Virus record (IMG/VR): IMGVR_UViG_3300009428_000031
Span: 1 to 33,052 of that record
Strand: one strand, 5' to 3'
Source of the DNA: a virus
DNA: 33,052 nt
The notes beneath the pieces are model-generated. The model had not been told where the DNA came from and ran no database searches. It was given only the letters and a program-made list of their open reading frames with translations. Position 1 is the first letter of the stretch; the number at the start of each line of letters is the position of its first letter. Shown here one piece after another: positions 31,229 to 31,660 of the stretch. Position numbers and translations under genes: made by a program.

Positions 31229-31660
31229 ATGAAACTATCTAAAATCATATTAGAAGGCCCCCTAGAATATGACCCAGGTTTTAGTCGAGAAATAGACAAG
31301 ATACAAGACCAGGGAGGTAAGTATATTGGTTCCGGAGATTACGGTTCGGTTTACCTTCTCAACGGAAAAGCAGTTAAAGTTACTACTGATGAAGTAGAAA
31401 TAGAACATGCTGAGATTCTTAAAGGTAAAAAAACTAATAATTTTGTATACATATACGATGTTAAAAAGTTAGATACTAAATTAGGTATTATTACAATGGA
31501 GGTTATGGGCGAATATAAAGGTGAAGTCCCTAATGAATTTATTGATGCATTAGAGAAAGAATCCACCAACTTAGGAATTGACCCAGACGAATTAGACCTG
31601 AGACCTGATAACTTTATGGTACACCCTAAATCAGGTAAATTAAAAATGACTGACGTATAG
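31229..31660 (+). CDS. Truncated protein kinase-like protein with capsid-targeting-like N-terminus, 143 aa
   Basis: After the start MKLSKIILEGP (I-L-E before Gly, matching the T4 prohead cleavage rule) comes a protein kinase N-lobe. The glycine loop is G34-S-G-D-Y-G-S-V-Y42, the ATP lysine K50 is in KAVKV, Glu residues lie in EIEHAEIL (57-64), and a hinge-like ITMEVMGEY is near 88-96. A catalytic loop D123-L-R-P-D-N128 follows (compare DLKPEN), then M-T-D142-V and the stop. The protein thus ends right at the DFG-like aspartate and lacks activation segment and C-lobe. It might act as a minimal kinase, a pseudokinase or a binding decoy. Last gene of the small-gene operon; the next promoter begins at its stop codon. 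Confidence 0.7.
   Translation: MKLSKIILEGPLEYDPGFSREIDKIQDQGGKYIGSGDYGSVYLLNGKAVKVTTDEVEIEHAEILKGKKTNNFVYIYDVKKLDTKLGIITMEVMGEYKGEVPNEFIDALEKESTNLGIDPDELDLRPDNFMVHPKSGKLKMTDV

Follow-up and report, generated by a model that had tools for sequence, protein, structure and literature searches.

The 33,052-nucleotide window (the whole stretch of viral DNA analysed here) encodes, at positions 31229-31660 of its + strand, a 143-residue kinase-like protein that ends at the Asp of its DFG-equivalent motif. The best explanation, which we favor with slightly better than even confidence, is that this is a packaged and injected kinase-fold protein without a C-lobe that acts on a host or defence target, by phosphotransfer in its marine clade. 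The source record is a 33-kb virus with T4-like baseplate genes (gp25 and gp6-like) and a DnaG-like primase, and the gene is shared by a large number of T4-like phages from the sea and from fresh water.

The open reading frame runs from ATG to TAG and specifies an N-lobe, an alphaE-like helix, a catalytic loop, the DFG-Asp and then the stop codon. The order of kinase motifs given in a preliminary description of this DNA was borne out: a glycine-rich loop, G34-S-G-D-Y-G-S-V41 (31328-31351), is followed by the beta3 ATP lysine of an AxK motif, Lys50 (31376-31378), the catalytic loop D123-L-R-P-D-N128 (31595-31612) and M-T-D142-V143-stop (31652-31660 from Asp142 onward), all on the + strand. Seven residues after Lys50 lies Glu57 (31397-31399, +), the probable alphaC glutamate, which we infer to pair with the lysine. 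When 82 distinct homologues were aligned, G36, G39, K50, D54, E57, N128, and D142 were invariant (82/82), and in every one a single V, I or Y stood between D142 and the stop. The early end had therefore been recognized correctly, but the window protein, like 82/82 homologues, continues for exactly one residue after the Asp rather than two. Nor is the whole C-lobe missing, as had been claimed: the alphaE-like helix (residues 102-114), the catalytic loop and the strands preceding the "DFG" are kept, whereas everything beyond it (activation segment, APE, and helices alphaF to alphaI) is gone from all 82. The kinase-like reading frame, its motifs and its early stop are confirmed well beyond chance, and the initial description proves correct in its essentials.

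The reading frame is shorter than any canonical kinase, which could be taken to mean that it is a degenerate fragment of a longer one, left by a decaying gene or by an assembly artefact. The endpoint is, however, identical in 82/82 homologues drawn from many metagenomes and from isolated phages, and comparison of the gene with its relatives gave dN/dS values of 0.05-0.13 with synonymous sites near saturation. Because endpoint and key residues are constant and dN/dS is low, we conclude that the gene is real and its early stop fixed; a pseudogene or truncation artefact is so improbable that we excluded it.

The preliminary description had left room for a non-kinase fold, and structure prediction returned kinases only. 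An AlphaFold2 model built with 38 homologues in the alignment had a pLDDT of 88.6 and a pTM of 0.82, with residues 1-11 disordered and an N-terminal helix at residues 16-27. All 50 of the matches listed by Foldseek against the PDB were kinases or pseudokinases (best E 9e-6). In VIA comparisons PKR scored Z 10.3 (rmsd 3.8, 124 residues aligned) and CDK2 scored Z ~9.5. In the latter comparison, residues 1-146 of CDK2, one residue past its DFG-Asp145, paired with model residues 22-143, so the chain corresponds to a kinase from the N-lobe to the DFG strands without the rest. A model of a homologue from the clade of the immuto phages, which has Ser in place of Asp123, again gave a kinase. A profile search of the PDB yielded mostly kinases, some of them, such as CDK5 and CDK12, collinear from the Gly loop to the DFG, at individually weak E-values. 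The Pfam Pkinase model stayed below threshold (E 0.42 for the window protein; 14 of 38 family members at E up to 1), and the window protein had no match in a single-sequence phmmer search of the PDB and no kinase match in NCBIfam. A SteC-like effector kinase was set aside, since the resemblance was a weak match to the Gly loop alone (E 0.0082). Taken as a model-based assignment, a kinase fold ending at the DFG is very nearly certain.

We then considered whether such a fold could be catalytic. The residues expected to hold Mg-ATP are all invariant. The catalytic-loop Asp, here Asp123, is the usual catalytic base of kinases; it is present in every homologue outside the immuto clade (63/82, the window protein included) and replaced in 19/82, all within that clade, by Ser (16), Arg (2), or Leu (1). 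Among the residues on which the preliminary description had staked the kinase assignment, Lys50 and Asn128 thus held throughout and Asp123 did not, and therefore catalysis is plausible in the marine clade and doubtful in the immuto clade. The chance that the marine clade is catalytically active appears about even, and the immuto clade may consist of pseudokinases because Asp123 is replaced there. Both this replacement and the complete loss of the activation and substrate-binding segment count against the favored explanation. They would fit an injected pseudokinase or nucleotide-binding decoy that binds ATP or Mg but transfers no phosphate, and that works by sequestering or mimicking a protein of the host or of its defences: loss of Asp123 while Lys50, Glu57, Asn128, and Asp142 remain invariant is the pattern expected if binding rather than phosphotransfer is selected, and the segment that binds peptides is gone. 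This reading seems to us somewhat unlikely; against it stand the retention of Asp123 by every homologue that does not belong to the immuto clade and the finding that T7-type kinases without a canonical C-lobe phosphorylate proteins (PMC12345140). AMPylation of the SelO kind, suggested by the D127-N128 pair, was a further idea, wholly speculative.

Among the closest known counterparts are the T7 gp0.7-type kinases (phrog_15752), to which the family is distantly related. This profile matched 33 of 38 family members (best E 1.7e-4), and a comparison of N-lobe profiles with eight T7-type kinases gave an hhalign probability of 93.5 and an E-value of 2.3e-7. Both groups have an acidic residue at K+7, which in the T7-type alignment is an invariant Asp. 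The stand-alone T7-type kinases of IMM-002, Dev2, 7t3, and Sharanji end 20-22 residues after the DFG-equivalent Asp, compared with one residue here, so that phage kinases which dispense with the C-lobe are nothing new. The motifs differ: T7-type kinases have an invariant D-x-H-x-x-N...ITDP, whereas this family has D-[LIVF]-x-x-D-N...[TIV]-D-[VIY]-stop. The present proteins, of 142-166 residues, have a leader of the capsid-targeting type; T7-type kinases, which are made early, extend further at the N-terminus and in some cases carry a basic shutoff domain. One T7-type kinase, JSS1_004, phosphorylates and inactivates DndFGH (PMC12345140).

A second comparison is offered by the Kinase-PolyVal domain of polyvalent phage proteins, which has lost the C-terminal subdomain entirely and kept its active-site residues (Iyer et al. 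2017, PMC5512222); these kinases occur in Bacteroidetes phages, some of them as stand-alone proteins (PMC5512222). We excluded membership in this group, as the PF18762 HMM matched neither the window (searched to E 5) nor family members (to E 1), and seven related phage records had no match either. The markers of Kinase-PolyVal, a Gln in the last N-lobe strand and a His-insert-Asp arrangement, were likewise not seen in the family alignment: the last N-lobe strand (residues 85-90, LGIITM) has no conserved Gln, and E121-L122-D123 has no His. The truncation had been called unusual, a judgement weakened by T7-type kinases that also end soon after the Asp and by the C-lobe-less phage kinases already published (PMC5512222). 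What appears to be new is the combination of a truncated kinase fold with a leader of the capsid-targeting type.

The suggestion that the protein starts with a capsid-targeting-like stretch draws strong support from comparison: from the leader of its homologues, a gp21-type protease and neighbours that share the leader. Residues 1-9, MKLSKIILE (31229-31255, +), form a predicted capsid-targeting leader with a predicted prohead-protease cut after Glu9 (I-L-E/G, the slash marking the cut). A leader of the form M...[IL]xE opens 77 of 82 homologues and is conserved at the protein level. It resembles the T4 leaders of IPIII (MKTYQEFIAE/A) and gp24 (MAKINELLRE/S), and T4 IPI-IPIII and Alt likewise have an amphipathic leader of ~10 residues ending in [IL]-x-E and depend on a protease of the gp21 family. 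In T4, 10 residues are enough for packaging (PMC9026906), and Alt is cleaved at ITE-6 and LTE-619 (PMC5694885). The window contig stops short of the head genes; an S77 (gp21-type) prohead protease was encoded in 10/10 large records that carry the kinase family. One relative, G001, has [LI]xE within residues 4-22 in 7/7 proteins of its head block versus 45/190 elsewhere (Fisher p 6.5e-5). Of the 36 ORFs of the window, four (29366, 30235, 30810, and 31229) open with the strict leader, which was seen at 0/124 internal Met codons. Internal methionines of G001 (0/685) and immuto (0/517) also lacked it, so that it was absent from all 1326 internal Met positions over the three genomes or parts of genomes. 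Because the start of the protein resembles the tag by which T4 loads proteins into its head, we regard packaging and injection as quite probable.

Five relatives lack a Glu leader, which weighs against this explanation. They form a branch (L148, L149, L150, L152, and L069) of 158-166 residues that starts MLPERLFIMD, with F7, I8, and D10. A T4 IPIII variant with Asp at position 10 is targeted and uncleaved (PMC9026906), and by this parallel the branch might be packaged and escape processing.

The gene stands at the right edge of a hypervariable island that reaches from a SegE-like gene to the primase. The left border is a GIY-YIG gene (28894-29379, +; PF19835, 3e-27) found at 131 of 154 related loci. 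The label "NAD synthetase" that PHROG 447 attaches to it, and likewise to immuto26A_171, looks wrong in view of the Pfam match to SegE GIY-YIG endonucleases. The right border is the DnaG-like primase (31700-32632, +; phrog_47, 6.6e-50), which lay downstream of the kinase in 125 of the 126 loci with enough sequence, mostly within 80 bp. Between the borders the window encodes two small leader-bearing proteins, MKISDIILKEE... (29366-29671, +) and MKLSEIFLRES... (30235-30558, +), and, directly upstream of the kinase, a protein with the leader MKLIKIVLEN (30810-31223, +). This last gene occupies a hypervariable slot: the gene adjoining the kinase varies between phages, yet nearly always has a leader of one kind, while the kinase-like gene is a stable member. 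Across positions 28894-31660 and the homologous loci L001-L185, ~10 unrelated body families carry either the MKLxxIILxE-type leader or its immuto-clade version, MKKSxL..IIxEE. At 31193-31223 the C-terminus of the upstream protein (...SRGDYGSLD) resembles the Gly loop of the kinase (GSGDYGSVY), and among the various upstream bodies GSLD, SGLD, GPLD, and EMDV(S/D) are frequent C-termini.

The arrangement recalls the T-even internal-protein loci, where unrelated bodies with a common leader also lie in a variable island (PMC9026906, PMC12373910). The T4 proteins Ip1-3 have the leader alone in common and inhibit different type IV restriction enzymes (PMC12373910). The present case differs from T4 in that its host is probably a member of the Bacteroidota and packaging is a prediction. 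We know of no kinases among the T4 internal proteins. The leader and the S77 protease would equally suit a head morphogenesis factor, that is, a prohead core protein comparable to T4 IPIII that is structural or phosphorylates head proteins during assembly; IPIII itself has both core and injected roles (PMC9026906), and persistence of the gene next to or near the primase at 125 of 126 loci points the same way. We consider this improbable, since the gene lies among the small accessory genes of a hypervariable island and not in the gp20-gp23 head block. The favored reading remains that of an injected protein acting in the host.

A search for transcription signals identified a conserved promoter-like element, TTG-N(17-21)-TAT[AC]TT, in the gap that separates the kinase gene from the primase gene (31661-31690, +); it shows where the next unit begins. 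The pattern was present in 45 of 51 intergenic regions versus a shuffled mean of 0.9, and 78 of 79 regions upstream of the primase contained a promoter-like element. On the + strand of the window such elements are located at 166, 466, 912, 1868, 2222, 2798, 4811, 28842, and 31661, and most of them precede a small ORF, the SegE-like gene or the primase by 50-60 bases; they are apparently rare in the structural block. In three immuto-clade loci (L155, L159, and L164) an inverted repeat with a T run (GGCTTG...CAAGTCTTTTTT) lies downstream of the kinase stop, overlaps the primase promoter, and resembles a terminator at the end of the kinase transcription unit. An argument for late expression from the element between kinase and primase was set aside, because the host-like element at 28842 precedes the island itself. 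This element tells against the favored explanation, and it would suit a cytoplasmic regulator made early or midway after infection whose N-terminus resembles a capsid-targeting sequence by coincidence. T7 gp0.7 is an early gene product, and the L148 group lacks the Glu leader. Coincidence is hard to reconcile with a leader that is conserved at the protein level, is common to ~10 unrelated neighbours, and in its strict form was found at 0/1326 internal Met positions, and we judge such a regulator unlikely.

The kinase family was seen in viral contigs only, with the gene in at least 190 IMG/VR stretches. No relative was found in a scan of ~85,000 bacterial and archaeal genomes, which excluded a cellular origin. 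The immuto phages of Flavobacterium encode a homologue with 44% identity, QQO91857.1 (immuto26A_178), annotated as a hypothetical protein. It resembles the window protein in its locus upstream of the primase and in its identical endpoint, and differs in having Ser in place of Asp123. Since these relatives infect Flavobacterium, the hosts of the family are probably Bacteroidota. PADLOC returned one weak match, to an HNH endonuclease (E 0.018), which we judged to be chance, and membership in a defence system was set aside. The analysis thus turned up nothing that ties the family directly to a defence system, which counts against the favored explanation.

The course of events that we infer, from packaging and cleavage to injection, catalysis, and engagement of a target, would be as follows. 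The first nine residues would act as a T4-type capsid-targeting sequence and bring the precursor into the prohead core, where the gp21-type phage protease would cleave after Glu9 to leave a mature protein of ~134 residues. This would enter the host together with the phage DNA and there bind Mg-ATP through Lys50, Glu57, Asn128, and Asp142. In the marine clade, which keeps Asp123, it would most likely phosphorylate host proteins, as the T7 kinase does, with takeover or anti-phage defence proteins as the probable targets; in the immuto clade, which lacks Asp123, it may bind nucleotide as a pseudokinase or be a weak enzyme. If the protein is injected, a role in counter-defence or host takeover is reasonably likely.

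A bolder reading, to which we give tentative credence, is that T4-like phages deliver this ~134-residue kinase fold, which stops at the DFG Asp, in their virions as an active effector that modifies proteins. It would carry out phosphotransfer or another nucleotidyl transfer, and its gene would lie beside a hypervariable slot for exchangeable injected proteins tagged with a capsid-targeting sequence. To our knowledge no other kinase is packaged by such a sequence, and this would be the first. If the reading is true, the protein would be among the smallest working protein-kinase cores and, if active, would define the minimum of the kinase fold that suffices for catalysis. It would also mean that kinase-like proteins are delivered into the host, ahead of phage gene expression, by T4-like phages that do not belong to the T-even group. 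Cultures exist both of the immuto phages and of Flavobacterium sp. LMO8. The leader would provide a simple sequence handle with which to list the injected proteins of uncultured phages: the leader-bearing families of the island make up a catalogue of candidate injected proteins, and several unrelated, otherwise unannotated families among them become candidate anti-defence proteins.
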